Positions 3,225 through 60,699 of a stretch of DNA of 64,000 bases are shown here, piece after piece. A program made the translations under genes and the position numbers. The stretch comes from Methanomassiliicoccales archaeon. GTDB taxonomy: Archaea > Thermoplasmatota > Thermoplasmata > Methanomassiliicoccales > JACIVX01. The notes under the pieces are model-generated. The model was not told the DNA's origin. It ran no database searches and saw nothing but the letters and a program-made list of their open reading frames with translations. The DNA is taken from NCBI GenBank assembly GCA_038850735.1, contig JAWCLO010000005.1, positions 62,001 to 126,000 on the forward strand. Direction: 5' to 3'. Within the stretch, counting starts at the first letter, position 1, and each line of letters begins with the position of its first letter.

Positions 3225-4390
3225 ATTACCGTGACGTGCACAGCCAGAGATCAAAGATTTTCAAAGACATCGCTAAGCTCTCATTCGATTATATACCAGA
3301 AAAATTAGTGCACAGAGAGATTCAAATGCAAAAGCTCTGGATGCTTTTCAGACCTTTGCTTGAAAAAGGCGTTTCTCAAACGGCTTTGCTGATCGGAAGC
3401 GTCGGAACTGGCAAGACAGCTGCATCGAAACGCTTTTGCCTAGACTTTGCAAAGGCTTCCAATGAGGCTGGGCGGGCCCTCGATTTCATCATAGTGAATT
3501 GTCGTCAGCGAAATACCGAAGCTAGCGTGATGCTCCGTCTTGTATCACACTTTGACGAAGGTTACCCTGATCGTGGAATATCCATAGCGGAAATGATATC
3601 CGCTTTGAAAAAGCATTTAGAGAAGCGGAAACTTCATTTCATTGTAGTACTTGATGAGGTTGACGTACTCCTCAGACGAGGGGCAGCTGATCTGGTCTAT
3701 CAGTTGTCGCGATTCGATGAAGAAAAATTAGGAAGCCGGGCTTCTCTCTCACTTATCCTTATTTCCCAGAAGCCAATAATCGAACTCCTTGATACATCTT
3801 CGCTTTCAACGCTCCGAAGGACAAATGTTATCAACTTTAATAAGTACACAAGGGATGAATTGAGGGATATAATCGCAGATAGGGTTTCGCTCGCATTCTT
3901 TCCTGGCACTATAAGGGAAGATGCAGTTGATCTGATAGCAGACATTGCTTCTGATTGGGGGGACGCACGATTTGCAATCGAACTGTTGGAACGATCTGGT
4001 ATGATTGCTGAGGAAGAGGGCGAAGATTTGGTCACACCGGAACATGTACGAGCGGCAAAGGCCTTCACATACAGCGTTGTAACAGAGTCAAAAATTGAGG
4101 AACTCGACAGGCAAAAGAAAATCGTGCTCTTGGGAATTTGTAGAGCACTCAAAGATCGCGCTTATGTGACCACAGGAGAAGCAGAGAAGGCTTATGCAAT
4201 TGCCGCTGAAGAATATGGGGAGAGGCCAAGAAGCCACACGCAATTCTGGTCCTATATACAAGAGTTGTCAAATGAAGGCATTCTTACAACAAAGGTATCC
4301 ACAGATACAACGGGAGGAAGAACCACTTTTATTTCTCTACCAGACATTCCTGCAAGGGTACTGAGGCAAAAAATTGAAGAAATGCTTTAG
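3221..4390 (+). CDS. Orc1/Cdc6-family replication initiator paralogue
   Basis: AAA+ ATPase plus C-terminal winged helix, the architecture of archaeal origin-recognition/helicase-loading proteins; 389 residues. Walker A is GSVGTGKT (59-66), Walker B is LDEVD (144-148), and the sensor-2 region contains GDAR (247-250). At the sensor-1 position it reads ISQK (181-184), whereas the other family member in this window has the usual ISND, so the sensor asparagine appears replaced. The start is a TTG overlapping the preceding stop by 4 nt (TTGA). The conserved IFKD N-terminal motif at residue 13 leaves no room for a later start. No ORB element was found next to it. Confidence 0.87.
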   Translation: MNYRDVHSQRSKIFKDIAKLSFDYIPEKLVHREIQMQKLWMLFRPLLEKGVSQTALLIGSVGTGKTAASKRFCLDFAKASNEAGRALDFIIVNCRQRNTEASVMLRLVSHFDEGYPDRGISIAEMISALKKHLEKRKLHFIVVLDEVDVLLRRGAADLVYQLSRFDEEKLGSRASLSLILISQKPIIELLDTSSLSTLRRTNVINFNKYTRDELRDIIADRVSLAFFPGTIREDAVDLIADIASDWGDARFAIELLERSGMIAEEEGEDLVTPEHVRAAKAFTYSVVTESKIEELDRQKKIVLLGICRALKDRAYVTTGEAEKAYAIAAEEYGERPRSHTQFWSYIQELSNEGILTTKVSTDTTGGRTTFISLPDIPARVLRQKIEEML

Positions 4391-55541: not shown

Positions 55542-56462
55542 ATGCTTATCAATCCACGGGAAAGTGAACCAATGATCAAGAACGCCGTTATTCGAATGGC
55601 AGTCAACATCGGCGTTGCGCTTGCTGCCGTACTTGTGATGTTTTTTGTACTTTTCGCGTACAGCGGAGTGTGGCCCCCGATGGTAGTAGTAGAATCCAGC
55701 AGCATGCAACACAGCGATTTGAAAAGCTCTATCGGCGTGATCGATACTGGAGATATCGTTATCGTAAAAAAGGCTAGAGGCGACTCGATAATTACTTATA
55801 TCGAAGGGGTCGCAGGTAACCACAGAACCTATGGAGATTATGGGGATGTGATCATCTATACAAGAGGCGCCGATTCAAGTTCAACGCCGATAATCCACAG
55901 GGCTTTTTGCAGAATCATTTACAATGCGACGGGAGGGGGATTCGACATTCCTTCGCTATCGCTTCTTCCTGAGTCTCAATGGAGAGTTCTACCAGGCGGA
56001 GAGCATGTCTGGTGGAATCTAAAAACAGTTGTTGAGATCTACCAAGTCGGTTATCTCGGCGTAACAGTTCGCCTTGATATTGCTAATATATTGCAATACT
56101 TTAATGCAAGTGGCAAGATGCCTCACGGCGGCTTGATCACAATGGGGGATCACAACTTCATCACTGAGGGGGGAATTCTCTACGGCTATTACGATCAGAT
56201 TTCGATTTTCAGAGAGCCAGTTAAAGATGATTGGATTCGAGGAAAGGCTAGAGGCGAGTTGCCGTGGTTCGGATTGTTGAAGCTATGGTTTGGTGGAGAT
56301 GCTCCCGCGAATATACCTGAGAACAGCAAAACGAATCTCATTATTACAATAACAATCGTTGTTCTCGTTCCCATTCTGCTGGACGCCACGAGCCTCATAT
56401 TAAAAAGCAAAGGTACAAGCATCTCTATGGAATTGAAAAGGTTTTTCCGTAAAAATCATTAG
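55542..56462 (+). CDS. Signal peptidase I, archaeal/ER (S26B) type
   Basis: Membrane protease that removes signal peptides, 306 residues. A transmembrane helix (about 20-42) is followed by the catalytic Ser54 in ESSSM and the catalytic His119 in PIIHR, the archaeal/ER replacement for the bacterial Lys, plus the GDHN motif (202-205). A second hydrophobic helix lies near 265-290. A large insert between 130 and 195 makes it longer than most archaeal enzymes. ATG 55542 or ATG 55572 may be the start; the latter lies closer to the family N-terminus. Confidence 0.87.
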   Translation: MLINPRESEPMIKNAVIRMAVNIGVALAAVLVMFFVLFAYSGVWPPMVVVESSSMQHSDLKSSIGVIDTGDIVIVKKARGDSIITYIEGVAGNHRTYGDYGDVIIYTRGADSSSTPIIHRAFCRIIYNATGGGFDIPSLSLLPESQWRVLPGGEHVWWNLKTVVEIYQVGYLGVTVRLDIANILQYFNASGKMPHGGLITMGDHNFITEGGILYGYYDQISIFREPVKDDWIRGKARGELPWFGLLKLWFGGDAPANIPENSKTNLIITITIVVLVPILLDATSLILKSKGTSISMELKRFFRKNH

Positions 56463-56573: not shown

Positions 56574-57809
56574 TTAAATGAGGGTTGTCTGGGTCTTCGG
56601 TCTGAAGTTTTTGAGCCCGCGCAACATCTCATCTTCTTCTAAAACCTTTTTTGCTTCGTGTGGCTGAACGCTAAGTTCAATTTCCTTCGTCCTTCCGCCC
56701 CTCCCGAAAGACCTTACCCGTGCATGAATAATTCCAAGCATGTCCAGCTCCGAGATAAGATCGGTAATCCTCCTTTGGGTCAGAACGGTAACGCCTATAG
56801 CCCTGCATAGTTCTCTATAAAGTTCGTACACATCACCAGTCGTCAGTCTCTCGTGACCTTTTTCTTCGTGCAGCACAATACTCATTAGTACGAGCTTGGA
56901 CTGCGTTGGCAGTGTTCTTATTGCCTCCGTCACGCAGTCAAGCTCAATTTTATTTTTCGCCTTATAGACGTGAGCTTCTGTGATTTTTTCATCATGATTG
57001 CGTTCGGCTATTTCTGCGGCAACCCTCAGCAGGTCAAGAGCGCGCCTCGCATCTCCGTGCTCCTGGGCCGCGAGTGCCGCGCACAGTGGAATCACACTTG
57101 GTTCAAGCACGCCATCTTCAAATGCAAGCGTGGCCCTCTGACTGAGAATGTCCTGGAGCTGCTCAGCGTTATACGGCGGGAAAACCATTTTTTCTTCTCC
57201 CAACCTACTTTTTACACGTGGATCCAGAAATTCGGTGAATGTGAGATCGTTAGATATCCCTATGAGCGAGACTTTTGCCTTTGCTAGATCATCATTTATT
57301 TTTGAAAGATGATAAAGAACGTCGTCTCCACTCTTGTAAACCAATTTGTCGAGCTCGTCAAGCACTATGATGTTGACTTTTCCCTCATCATCAATTTTTT
57401 CCTTTAAGATGTTGTAGACTCTCTCTGTACTCCACCCAGTAAACGGGATTCTCTCCCCAAAATCGCTGATAAGGCGATTTCCAATGTTCTGAAGCACGCC
57501 ATATTGAGTGTCCACAACTTCACAATTCATATAAAAGAAATTTATGCGATTAGAAGTAGTATCAGCCTTTCTCATTTCATTACCGAGATACTTGACGCAT
57601 GCTGTTTTGCCAGTCCCAGTCTTTCCGAAAATCAAAACATTTGATGGTCGATCCCCCCTTAAAGCTGTGGAAAGCACCGCTGCGAGCTGATTTATTTGCT
57701 GCTGTCGATGAGGAAGTTCATCTGGTATGTACGAGGGCCTTAGAATTTCGCGATTCTTTTTGAAGAGTGGTTTTGATTTGAGATATGGTTGAAAGATGTT
57801 GTCTTCCAT
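56574..57809 (-). CDS. cdc6: Orc1/Cdc6 origin-recognition initiator
   Basis: Archaeal Orc1/Cdc6 of 411 residues. Walker A is GKTGTGKT (62-69), Walker B LDELD (150-154), sensor 1 GISND (184-188), and sensor 2 GDARRAL; the C-terminal winged helix is about 320-405. All consensus residues are kept, unlike in the paralogue near 3.2 kb. ATG 57809 is 7 nt after a GGGGAGGA ribosome-binding site; the upstream extension is spurious. Two ORB-like elements lie immediately upstream, which is where euryarchaeal origins sit relative to their cognate orc1/cdc6. It should therefore be the initiator for the origin described here. Confidence 0.93.
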   Translation of the reverse strand: MEDNIFQPYLKSKPLFKKNREILRPSYIPDELPHRQQQINQLAAVLSTALRGDRPSNVLIFGKTGTGKTACVKYLGNEMRKADTTSNRINFFYMNCEVVDTQYGVLQNIGNRLISDFGERIPFTGWSTERVYNILKEKIDDEGKVNIIVLDELDKLVYKSGDDVLYHLSKINDDLAKAKVSLIGISNDLTFTEFLDPRVKSRLGEEKMVFPPYNAEQLQDILSQRATLAFEDGVLEPSVIPLCAALAAQEHGDARRALDLLRVAAEIAERNHDEKITEAHVYKAKNKIELDCVTEAIRTLPTQSKLVLMSIVLHEEKGHERLTTGDVYELYRELCRAIGVTVLTQRRITDLISELDMLGIIHARVRSFGRGGRTKEIELSVQPHEAKKVLEEDEMLRGLKNFRPKTQTTLI

Positions 57810-57855
57810 TTGGGTCCTCCCCCCAAGATAAAAAGGTATGGGAGCAATGCATCCC

Positions 57856-57877
57856 ACCCCTTTGTTTCCGATGGAAA
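57856..57877 (-). promoter_or_regulatory. ORB-like element 1
   Basis: Minus strand reads TTTCCATCGG then AAACAAAGGGGT. It keeps the core (TTCCA-n-n-GGAAAC-AAAGGGG) of euryarchaeal origin recognition boxes as I know them from Pyrococcus. It lies about 47 bp before the cdc6 start codon. Confidence 0.75.
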
Positions 57878-58020
57878 TCAAATCCTACTTTGAACAAACT
57901 ATCGAATAGCGTTCTGTATTACAAGAACTTTATTTTTATCTTCGTTCAAAAAAATACTAGGCATCTGGTGCAGATCTAGATCTTTCTGGATAAAAAGGAA
58001 AAATCTCTTCATGATGTCCT

Positions 58021-58042
58021 ACCCCTTTATTTCCTGTGGAGG
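58021..58042 (-). promoter_or_regulatory. ORB-like element 2
   Basis: Minus strand reads CCTCCACAGG then AAATAAAGGGGT, in the same orientation as element 1 and 144 bp from it (end to start). It is 21/22 identical to element 3. Confidence 0.78.
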
Positions 58043-58296
58043 TTGTCGGATCACTGTTGTGCCTTTTTGATGTGAGATCATAGATATCTGGATGAGTGGC
58101 AAGCTTCGATATGTCAAGAAGGATTTAAGATCCTCATTTCATTTGGAGTTTCAATGATCAATGCATGCTCTTTTGATCACTTATAGACTTTTTTCCGTTC
58201 CAAATCGAGGCATTCTCCCCTAGCTTTCGTGCTGTGATTAACAATAAGACTTTAGTTTATAAATTGAATAATTATATTCGTTGAAGGTGAATTGAG

Positions 58297-58731
58297 ATGC
58301 TCTGTAGTAAGGAGGAAGATGTCATTATCGTGAAGCTTGAAGACGGCGAAGATGTTCATTCAAATCTGATTAGGGTGGCAGAGAAATACGGTGTAGAGTG
58401 TGGATGGGTATTCAGCGGGATAGGTATATTAAGAGAATTTACTCTTGGATACTTCACTGGAAGGGAATATATAAAAAAATACTTCGGGCAACCTCACGAA
58501 TTGTTATCATTGACCGGCTCAATTACTATTAACACCGACGTCCCGATTCATTTGCATTGTTCTGTTTCAAACTCAAAATTTGAAGCTTTTGGCGGCCATT
58601 TATTCTCTGGAAAGGCCAATGTCCTTAATGAAGTATTAATCAAAAAGTTTGACAAAATAAAGCTTTCAAGAAAATACAATCCAAAGACACAATATAAAGA
58701 GCTTGACATTATTACAAACGATTGTATCTGA
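58297..58731 (+). CDS. PPC-domain (DUF296) DNA-binding-like protein
   Basis: A 144-residue protein containing one PPC (plant and prokaryote conserved, DUF296) domain: the DGEDVHSNLIRVAEKYGVECGWVFSGIGILREFTLGYF region and HLHCSVSNSKFEAFGGHLFSG, with conserved His and Gly. In plants such domains are part of AHL DNA-binding proteins; archaeal single-domain forms are trimeric and of unknown role. It sits inside the presumed origin. An AT-rich tract (58250-58282) and GAAGGTGA ribosome-binding site lie before ATG 58297. Confidence 0.85.
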   Translation: MLCSKEEDVIIVKLEDGEDVHSNLIRVAEKYGVECGWVFSGIGILREFTLGYFTGREYIKKYFGQPHELLSLTGSITINTDVPIHLHCSVSNSKFEAFGGHLFSGKANVLNEVLIKKFDKIKLSRKYNPKTQYKELDIITNDCI

Positions 58732-58892
58732 GATTATATTCAAATTTCTATCAAAAATAATTTGAAATACTATCCAACATTTTAATAACTATAAGCACTA
58801 CTGAGCGAAACGATAAAGACACCGTTCTTTTTATTAATTTAATTAAGCCTTGAAATTTAAGAAGTCGACATTAAAGTCGCAGCGAGATTACC
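58732..58892. other. AT-rich segment, possible unwinding element
   Basis: The space between the PPC-domain gene and hflX is strongly AT-rich (for example TTTTTATTAATTTAATTAAG near 58837-58856) and has no gene. It may hold the hflX promoter and may also be the easily melted part of the origin. Confidence 0.4.
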
Positions 58893-60173
58893 ATGAATGA
58901 AGTTCCAGACGGAGAAATAATACATGAAGGAATAAGAGGGAACGCGATAGTGCTCACTATTAGCAAGAATACAAAAGAACTAGAAGATCTTATCGAGTCT
59001 GCCGGGTATAGAGTATATTGTGAAGTAATTCAGAGAAGGAACTCACCAGAAGCGTCTACATTCTTAGGCAGAGGTAAATTAGAATCCGTCAAAGCGCTTC
59101 TTTCACAGCTCCCTGCAGATCTTGTGGTCGTTAACGGAGATCTAAAACCAGCTCAGCAATTCAATCTGGAAAGAGAATTGAAGATAAAATGCATTGATCG
59201 TGTTGGAATTGTACTCGAAATCTTTGCCAATAAAGCTCGAAGTAAGGAAGCAAAACTTCAAGTTGAGAGAGCACGGCTCAAATACGAAATACCATTCATT
59301 CGTGAGTGGATTCATAGAATAAAAATCGGAGAACGGGCGGGTCATTTCTCAGGCGGTGAATACGAAGCATCGATTTACTACGATCTAATAAGAAGAAGAG
59401 TAAAAAAGATCGATGATGAATTAAAGGAGCTTCGCAGATCACATCTTAAATTTAACAAAAAAGAAGAAAATAATGCTTACATTGTATCTCTTGCAGGATA
59501 CACTAATGCTGGAAAGTCAAGTTTGTTCTCTGCACTTACAAATAAAGATACTGTTATTGATGAGAAAATGTTCTCGACATTGCGACCTTTATCTGCGCGA
59601 ATTCGTAAAACGAAAAAGAACGTCATTCTTATAGATACAATCGGGTTTCTCGACAATCTTCCCGTCTTCCTCATCGAATCTTTCAAAAACACAATTGATG
59701 ATATATTTGAGGCAGATTTAGTATTGCTTGTTGTTGATATTTCAGAGAGTGTGGCTGAAATAGAAAGAAAGATTAATGCAAGTATGAAAATTCTTCTGCC
59801 CCAGGTAGATCCTAGGAACATTTTGTTGATCGGTAATAAGACAGATAAGCTGGACGACATTGCACTTAAGGATCGCAAGCGTCTTTTAGAGTCCTATAAG
59901 GATACAGCAGGTGTAATTCTCACATCTGCAAAGGATCGAGTTGGAGTGACGGAAATCCTCAACTTCATAACCAATCGCTTCGGAAATTTTGAATCGATGT
60001 CTTTGGAATTACCTTATAACGAGAAAACGAACGGCCTTATTTCATGGCTCAGCAAAAATGTGATTATAAATGACATAGTGTATTCGAATTGTGTAAGTAT
60101 ATCTTTTGAATTTTCCATAGCACTAAGGTCAACACTGATGCGGAAATTGTCTGAAATCAATGTTCAAATATGA
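58893..60173 (+). CDS. hflX: GTPase HflX
   Basis: Ribosome-associated GTPase of the HflX/Obg class, 426 residues. The HflX N-terminal domain (about 1-185) includes TFLGRGKLE and the NGDLKPAQQFNLE region (normally D-E-L-x-P-x-Q-x-R-N-L-E); a helical linker with GERAGHFSGGE follows. The G domain has G1 GYTNAGKS (202-209), DTIGF (G3) and NKTD (G4). It splits or rescues ribosomes and is found in both archaea and bacteria. Its location in the origin region is a feature of this genome and may be accidental. Confidence 0.92.
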   Translation: MNEVPDGEIIHEGIRGNAIVLTISKNTKELEDLIESAGYRVYCEVIQRRNSPEASTFLGRGKLESVKALLSQLPADLVVVNGDLKPAQQFNLERELKIKCIDRVGIVLEIFANKARSKEAKLQVERARLKYEIPFIREWIHRIKIGERAGHFSGGEYEASIYYDLIRRRVKKIDDELKELRRSHLKFNKKEENNAYIVSLAGYTNAGKSSLFSALTNKDTVIDEKMFSTLRPLSARIRKTKKNVILIDTIGFLDNLPVFLIESFKNTIDDIFEADLVLLVVDISESVAEIERKINASMKILLPQVDPRNILLIGNKTDKLDDIALKDRKRLLESYKDTAGVILTSAKDRVGVTEILNFITNRFGNFESMSLELPYNEKTNGLISWLSKNVIINDIVYSNCVSISFEFSIALRSTLMRKLSEINVQI

Positions 60174-60231
60174 TGGTTTGTAATTCGGTAAATGAATATA
60201 GCAATCATGTCGCTGCATGAATAAAACTTAT

Positions 60232-60253
60232 CTTCCACAGGAAATAAAGGGGT
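60232..60253 (+). promoter_or_regulatory. ORB-like element 3
   Basis: Plus strand reads CTTCCACAGG then AAATAAAGGGGT, 59 bp after the hflX stop. It is inverted relative to elements 1 and 2, so the boxes point away from each other with about 2.2 kb between. Confidence 0.75.
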
Positions 60254-60312
60254 CCCTCCGATCTAATCCATAGACAAAAAACACGTCAAAAAAAGAAAGC
60301 TTGAATCAAATA

Positions 60313-60699
60313 TTACTTCAAATTAAATTCTCTTTTCTTGTTTTTCAAATCAGCTTCGTACTTCTTTGGCAGTCTCCACGCAAGATATTCAATCTCATCA
60401 AGATTCGAAATGAACTCCGATTTGCTTTTTGTCGAAATCCACCTGCGAAACCTAACGGCCATTGAAAAGAACTTCAAACCCCATCCAATACCAATAACTA
60501 GGAGAATAATGCCGATTGCCACGCAGTAATAACACCAAGCCTTAGGTATTAGTTCAGAACCTGAAAAAAATGAAACCGCAGAGGCTCCAATTAGCAGTAA
60601 TCCTACAATGAAGAGTGTAAGTGAGATGTGTAGGGCAAACTGAACATGAAGCGGTTTTGACACATCTGGTATATTGCCATCATTCCTTTTATTTCTCAC
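60313..60699 (-). CDS. Small membrane protein with two helices
   Basis: A 128-residue protein with two hydrophobic segments (about 25-48 and 54-78), a polar N-terminus and a charged C-terminal tail (KSKSEFISNLDEIEYLAWRLPKKYEADLKNKKREF, in part). No characterised family recognised; the arrangement resembles small two-helix membrane proteins of Thermoplasmata, but that is a weak impression. It is the only minus-strand gene to the right of the origin. ATG 60699 is the first start. Confidence 0.65.
   Translation of the reverse strand: MRNKRNDGNIPDVSKPLHVQFALHISLTLFIVGLLLIGASAVSFFSGSELIPKAWCYYCVAIGIILLVIGIGWGLKFFSMAVRFRRWISTKSKSEFISNLDEIEYLAWRLPKKYEADLKNKKREFNLK

Follow-up and report, generated by a model that had tools for sequence, protein, structure and literature searches.

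The window, a 64,000-nucleotide stretch of archaeal DNA, carries toward its far end an initiator gene, orc1/cdc6 (orc1/cdc6.1; 56574-57809, minus strand), followed by a PPC/PCC-domain gene (58297-58731, plus strand), hflX (58893-60173, plus strand) and a gene for a DUF3198 membrane protein (60313-60699, minus strand). The orc1 product scores over the cut-offs of NF001625 (610.6 bits against a cut-off of 501) and TIGR02928 and has a Cdc6_C winged helix. By sequence search its closest solved chains are 2qby_A (the best PDB relative, E 1.1e-113) and 2v1u_A, both of them ORB-binding initiators, and its closest relatives, most of them named Methanomassiliicoccales, are 77-86% identical. The hflX product reaches 267 bits with TIGR03156 (cut-off 216.75), the PPC-domain product matches PF03479 (E 1.2e-25) and the DUF3198 product PF11433 (E 2.6e-8); the preliminary description of this DNA had named the first three genes correctly. 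Its statement that genes diverge from the region holds for orc1 and the PPC-hflX pair and fails for the remaining genes. On the orc1 side lies a gene (55542-56462, plus strand) that is syntenic in relatives and appears signal-peptidase-like by motif, with no match in Pfam or NCBIfam, and tiaS is also among the neighbours. A second, divergent orc1/cdc6 paralogue, 32% identical, was seen at 3275-4360 of the window, 53 kb from the origin region and without ORBs; it fits the paralogue orc1/cdc6.2, whose role is unclear, that has been described for Methanomassiliicoccales (PMC4153887).

Three ORB-like boxes are set around these genes. ORB1 (57857-57876, minus strand), with no mismatches to the ORB pattern, lies in the 5' leader of orc1, downstream of the probable orc1 promoter and ahead of the start codon, and ORB2 (58022-58041, minus strand), with one mismatch, lies upstream of that promoter, at the inner edge of the enclosed segment. 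The probable promoter itself is a conserved AT-rich block, GATAAAAATAAAGTTCTTGTAAT (57918-57940, minus strand), that emerged between ORB1 and ORB2 in an alignment of four close relatives. ORB3 (60233-60252, plus strand; no mismatches) is the distal, inverted box; hflX and the DUF3198 gene converge here, and the box falls in the 139-bp gap that separates their 3' ends. Because this gap is non-coding and convergent, neither coding constraint nor a promoter accounts for ORB3. The enclosed segment (58042-60232, no strand assigned), proposed here as an initiation zone, is 2,191 bp long and AT-rich, with a GC content of about 0.37 against 0.44-0.50 in the flanking kilobases.

Sequence, number and polarity of the boxes

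Direct reading of the sequence bore out that ORB-like sites are present at 57856-57877, 58021-58042 and 60232-60253, and that the second and third of them match at 21 of 22 bases. Read 5' to 3' on the ORB strand, the 22-mers are TTTCCATCGGAAACAAAGGGGT for ORB1 (57856-57877, minus), CCTCCACAGGAAATAAAGGGGT for ORB2 (58021-58042, minus) and CTTCCACAGGAAATAAAGGGGT for ORB3 (60232-60253, plus). With the search pattern TTCCANNGGAAANAAAGGGG and up to three mismatches allowed, the window held four matches, having 0, 1, 0 and 3 mismatches, against 0.29 on average and never more than 2 in 100 shuffles of the window. The search was also made in the whole assembly (1.66 Mb in 24 contigs, 98% complete), where only ORB1, ORB2, ORB3 and one other site match with at most one mismatch, so that a concern raised beforehand, that ORB-like sequences might be equally frequent elsewhere in the genome, was not borne out. 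On the strength of the shuffles and of this scarcity, a chance occurrence of the three boxes was rejected. The other site (C7:2185, or L086:2185-2204; TTGCAGGGGAAATAAAGGGG, one mismatch) stands alone in the space between ORFs, away from any replication gene. At up to three mismatches the pattern found 8+5 matches in the whole assembly and the same pattern written backwards 7+4; because this control yields nearly as many, the weak matches were taken as noise.

The G-tails of the boxes face outward, away from hflX, with the two minus-strand boxes on the left and the one plus-strand box on the right. The boxes had been described as inward-facing, which is hereby corrected; the outward polarity is that of the proven oriC1 of Haloarcula hispanica. 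ORB1 and ORB2 are equal in orientation, and ORB3 is the only inverted partner. The interval between ORB2 and ORB3 holds two genes in place of a short non-coding unwinding element, which is a usual, if not strict, feature of oriC1, and because no such element lies between the inverted ORBs the locus was classed as a variant of the oriC1 type. Local GC skew changes sign at 55-58 kb of the window, a change that is confounded by gene orientation; whole-chromosome skew, sampled in 20-kb pieces, showed a weak trend in G036 and no signal in G147, G154 and G155.

Boxes and enclosed genes in related genomes

For comparison, 63 orc1 loci were fetched, mostly from metagenome-assembled genomes, and each was searched for ORBs and neighbour genes. 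Where hflX lies beside orc1, boxes recur at about -60 (plus), at about -190 to -275 (plus) and, inverted, beyond hflX at about -1.4 to -2.4 kb. The distal inverted box was found with at most two mismatches in 30 of the 35 testable loci of this hflX type, the window being counted among the 35, against a background of one such match outside the origin region in 677 kb of the same loci. Five of the 35 had no recognisable distal box, and more distant Thermoplasmatota (e.g., L054-L065) had the proximal box only. The DUF3198 gene is a conserved neighbour of the distal ORB, and a PPC gene was found between the boxes in this genus and its close kin (L014, L015, L105) and in one distant genome, G167. 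The placement of genes between inverted boxes, which the preliminary description had thought unusual, is thus real and is the norm across this archaeal group, with hflX conserved and the PPC gene restricted. The idea that the PPC gene is a recent insertion was dropped, since its adjacency to hflX recurs in G167; there (L210) it lies directly beside hflX inside the ORB pair, and the neighbourhood of these two genes may be old. In relatives (e.g., L018, L020, L022) a conserved run of C comes after the distal ORB (GGGGtCCCcCT), and more G after the proximal boxes (GGGGtgGGg).

Some ORB-like strings in relatives lie within coding sequence. The distal boxes of L029, L049 and L076, genomes from which hflX is absent, were not counted as support because they fall inside peptidase-like and GcvT-like ORFs upstream of orc1, and these may be either protein-constrained strings or real distal boxes. 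A second ORB locus was likewise not claimed, as one candidate, TTCCACAAGAAATGAAGGGG, is within a long conserved gene that is MCM-like by motif and the other, beside gyrB, is in the N-terminus of a gene that is ThiC-like by motif. Both strings recur across species (L088, L094-L099 and L107 for the first gene, L090-L093 for the second), are explained by protein constraint, and would mislead motif-based origin finders.

The boxes follow hflX and not orc1. In the 5.16-Mb chromosome of G155, hflX (250110-251312) is bracketed by ORBs at 250026 (minus) and 251400 (plus), with two mismatches each, and no ORB was found within 8 kb of orc1, at 3.29 Mb. In G167 the order at hflX is ORB(-)-PPC-hflX-DUF3198-ORB(+), with one mismatch per box, and orc1, which is located elsewhere, has no boxes. 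In a third genome, G154, hflX lies about 1 Mb from orc1 and retains one good box and a possible decayed one. In the ISO4-H5-like family no hflX was found, and orc1 itself lies between inverted ORBs 1.54-1.75 kb apart, a pair that tiaS and the signal-peptidase-like gene still flank; in a genome resembling Ca. M. intestinalis, hflX is missing and the box pair is merely 272 bp apart. The enclosed gene was seen in both orientations, as hflX in L071 and G155 (L192) and as orc1 in L175, L185 and G036 (L100/L101). In G036 and L185 a double ORB is present on the other side too, as if the entire unit flips.

Base composition changes with the enclosed gene. GC between the ORBs is below that of the flanks in 30 of 31 hflX-type loci and in 20 of 20 orc1-type loci, and the GC3 of enclosed hflX is below that of orc1 in 35/35 loci, of tiaS in 33/33 and of the signal-peptidase-like gene in 31/31. 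Enclosed orc1 has a GC3 below that of tiaS in all 19 loci compared, whereas un-enclosed orc1 is slightly above tiaS, a group difference with p = 8.5e-9, where p-values ignore shared descent. For that reason the argument from composition is rested on the exchange of the enclosed gene and on the unlinked cases. Ranked against ORFs of at least 200 aa in samples of each genome, the window's own hflX (GC3 0.336) is the lowest of 99 sampled ORFs. The GC3 percentiles of hflX and orc1 are 1.0 and 87.8 in G147, 1.0 and 93.5 in G155, and 6.4 and 77.7 in G154; in G036, where orc1 is enclosed, orc1 stands at 1.2, with tiaS (7.3) and the signal-peptidase-like gene (4.9) also low. Three hflX genes without ORBs have a GC content equal to or above that of their surroundings. 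Low GC3 goes with the enclosed position, whichever gene sits there, and hflX outside ORBs is not AT-rich.

Readings of the locus

The locus is very likely the chromosomal replication origin, of the oriC1 type, of an archaeon in or near Methanomassiliicoccales. This was the main proposal of the preliminary description, and it is supported by the rarity of ORBs, by non-coding sites that are kept in about 30 relatives, by the adjoining initiator and by the oriC1 gene context of haloarchaea. The call of an origin is itself not new: a 2014 paper already reported ORBs at orc1/cdc6.1 in Methanomassiliicoccales (PMC4153887), and haloarchaeal oriC1 likewise adjoins a GTP-binding protein gene (PMC4010727). 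In the open-access literature searched, neither an ORB pair that spans hflX nor an effect of enclosure on gene composition was found described.

Taken as a whole, the locus is best explained, with moderate confidence, as an oriC1-type origin in which inverted ORBs with outward G-tails bracket a gene-bearing initiation zone of 1.3-2.2 kb. Models of archaeal initiation suppose that two Orc1-bound boxes lie close together and pass MCM to a small melting element in the space that separates them. At the present locus Orc1 (56574-57809) would bind ORB1 and ORB2 on one side and ORB3 on the other, and, by analogy with Sulfolobus and Haloarcula, Orc1 on ORB2 (aided by ORB1) and on ORB3 may direct two MCM hexamers inward onto the hflX-bearing segment. 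The duplex would then open within the enclosed and presumably easily melted 2.2-kb AT-rich segment of PPC gene and hflX, with coding DNA taking the place of the short non-coding unwinding element used elsewhere, and synonymous sites of this DNA may have shifted toward A and T by drift or by selection. Through ORB1, in the orc1 leader, Orc1 probably also represses its own gene. Points against this explanation are the 2.2-kb spacing, some ten times as long as in characterised origins, the weak (G036) or absent (G147, G154, G155) GC skew of related complete chromosomes, and the loci in which a distal box is unrecognisable (five of 35) or only the proximal one is seen (more distant Thermoplasmatota). 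A more general proposal, made tentatively and at just under even odds, is that in Thermoplasmatota the initiation zone is a protein-coding gene, such that an ORB-bracketed stretch of 1.3-2.2 kb with codons held AT-rich for melting, and not proximity to orc1, would define the origin; orc1 could then leave while ORB-hflX-ORB stays.

The strongest alternative accepts the origin and denies the low GC3 any function in melting, attributing it either to mutation, as a by-product of repeated opening, or to the gene's own codon usage. Mutation bias produces just such GC3 shifts, and this alternative is a serious possibility that we would place somewhat short of an even chance, although its codon-usage variant is unlikely, given that un-enclosed hflX is not AT-rich and that the composition of orc1 changes with position. 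Even a mutational by-product would identify the segment as initiation zone, so that selection for melting and a mutational scar of repeated opening both place that zone in the enclosed segment.

Less probable, and in our estimate unlikely, is a compact origin consisting of ORB1, ORB2 and the adjoining intergenic DNA, in which ORB3 would be an accessory (for initiator titration, or as a domain edge or transcription block) and hflX a bystander. Such an arrangement would agree with the melting of a short non-coding stretch in all characterised archaeal origins (PMC4010727, PMC12141716), but would be built on ORB1 and ORB2, whose like orientation leaves ORB3 as the sole inverted partner. High AT content is found in the intergenic DNA upstream of orc1 too, yet the AT bias spans the whole enclosed gene and shifts to orc1 where orc1 is enclosed. 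In H. hispanica oriC2, accessory ORB clusters reduce origin activity (PMC3936714), and the distal box is unrecognisable in some relatives; the boxes of G155 and G167, however, bracket hflX, and there are none at orc1. That the boxes are Orc1 operator sites for transcription of orc1 (and hflX), with no origin at all, is very improbable, since the flanking of the conserved promoter-like orc1 block by ORB1 and ORB2, which would suit operators, is outweighed by the position of ORB3, which lies where two genes converge, a place not expected to hold a promoter, and which is the best-conserved feature on that side, by the bracketing of hflX without orc1 in two genomes, and by proven haloarchaeal origins that are marked by the same box type and gene context (PMC3936714, PMC4010727).

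For the favoured explanation, an origin with a gene-bearing initiation zone, a gene-containing interval conserved at 1.3-2.2 kb raises the question of how two inverted Orc1 sites cooperate so far apart, whether transcribing the enclosed gene competes with opening or drives it, and whether origin function can shape synonymous codons. The arrangement ORB-hflX-ORB also provides a simple handle for origin finding in uncultured Thermoplasmatota genomes, including those with orc1 elsewhere; where orc1 is unlinked, predictors that rely on it would indicate the wrong place.

Comparison with known origins

On one strand of H. hispanica oriC1, CCCCCC forms the end of the left ORB and GGGGGGGG that of the right ORB, giving outward G-tails, and removal of either box impairs autonomous replication (PMC3936714). 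The present locus resembles haloarchaeal oriC1 (Haloarcula hispanica oriC1-cdc6A; PMC3936714, PMC4010727) in its inverted ORBs with outward G-tails, in the AT-rich DNA between them and in the adjoining orc1. The haloarchaeal gene context, gbp-cdc6-sec (PMC4010727), may likewise be matched by genes for a GTP-binding protein, Cdc6 and a signal peptidase in the same order, of which hflX is confirmed here and the signal peptidase is recognised by motif only; from the account in PMC4010727, the haloarchaeal gbp would correspond to HflX. In haloarchaea, however, a short AT-rich minimal origin lies between the two ORBs and gbp is outside, whereas here the pair encloses a gene and a distance of 2.2 kb separates the boxes.

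In Sulfolobus, Orc1-1 on inverted ORBs is believed to bring two MCM hexamers to the intervening DNA (PMC12141716). With Sulfolobus oriC1 (ORB2-DUE-ORB3, Orc1-1; PMC12141716) the locus shares a closely related initiator (2qby_A) and inverted ORBs flanking the DNA to be opened, but in Sulfolobus that DNA is a short non-coding DUE with bound UBP protein and no gene is enclosed.

A further comparison is with the orc1/cdc6.1 origins of Methanomassiliicoccales (PMC4153887, PMC5011839), which are of the same order or near to it and have the same ORB type and A-type ATP synthase genes nearby. For Ca. M. alvus, ORB pairs have been listed on both sides of orc1 (PMC4153887, PMC5011839). These published origins differ from the present one in that a distal ORB beyond hflX is unlisted for M. 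luminyensis, and no role or composition of an enclosed gene is described. A precedent for boxes spread over a neighbouring gene is given in PMC2643942; there the boxes are within the coding sequence, whereas those of the present locus lie in non-coding gaps on either side of the gene.
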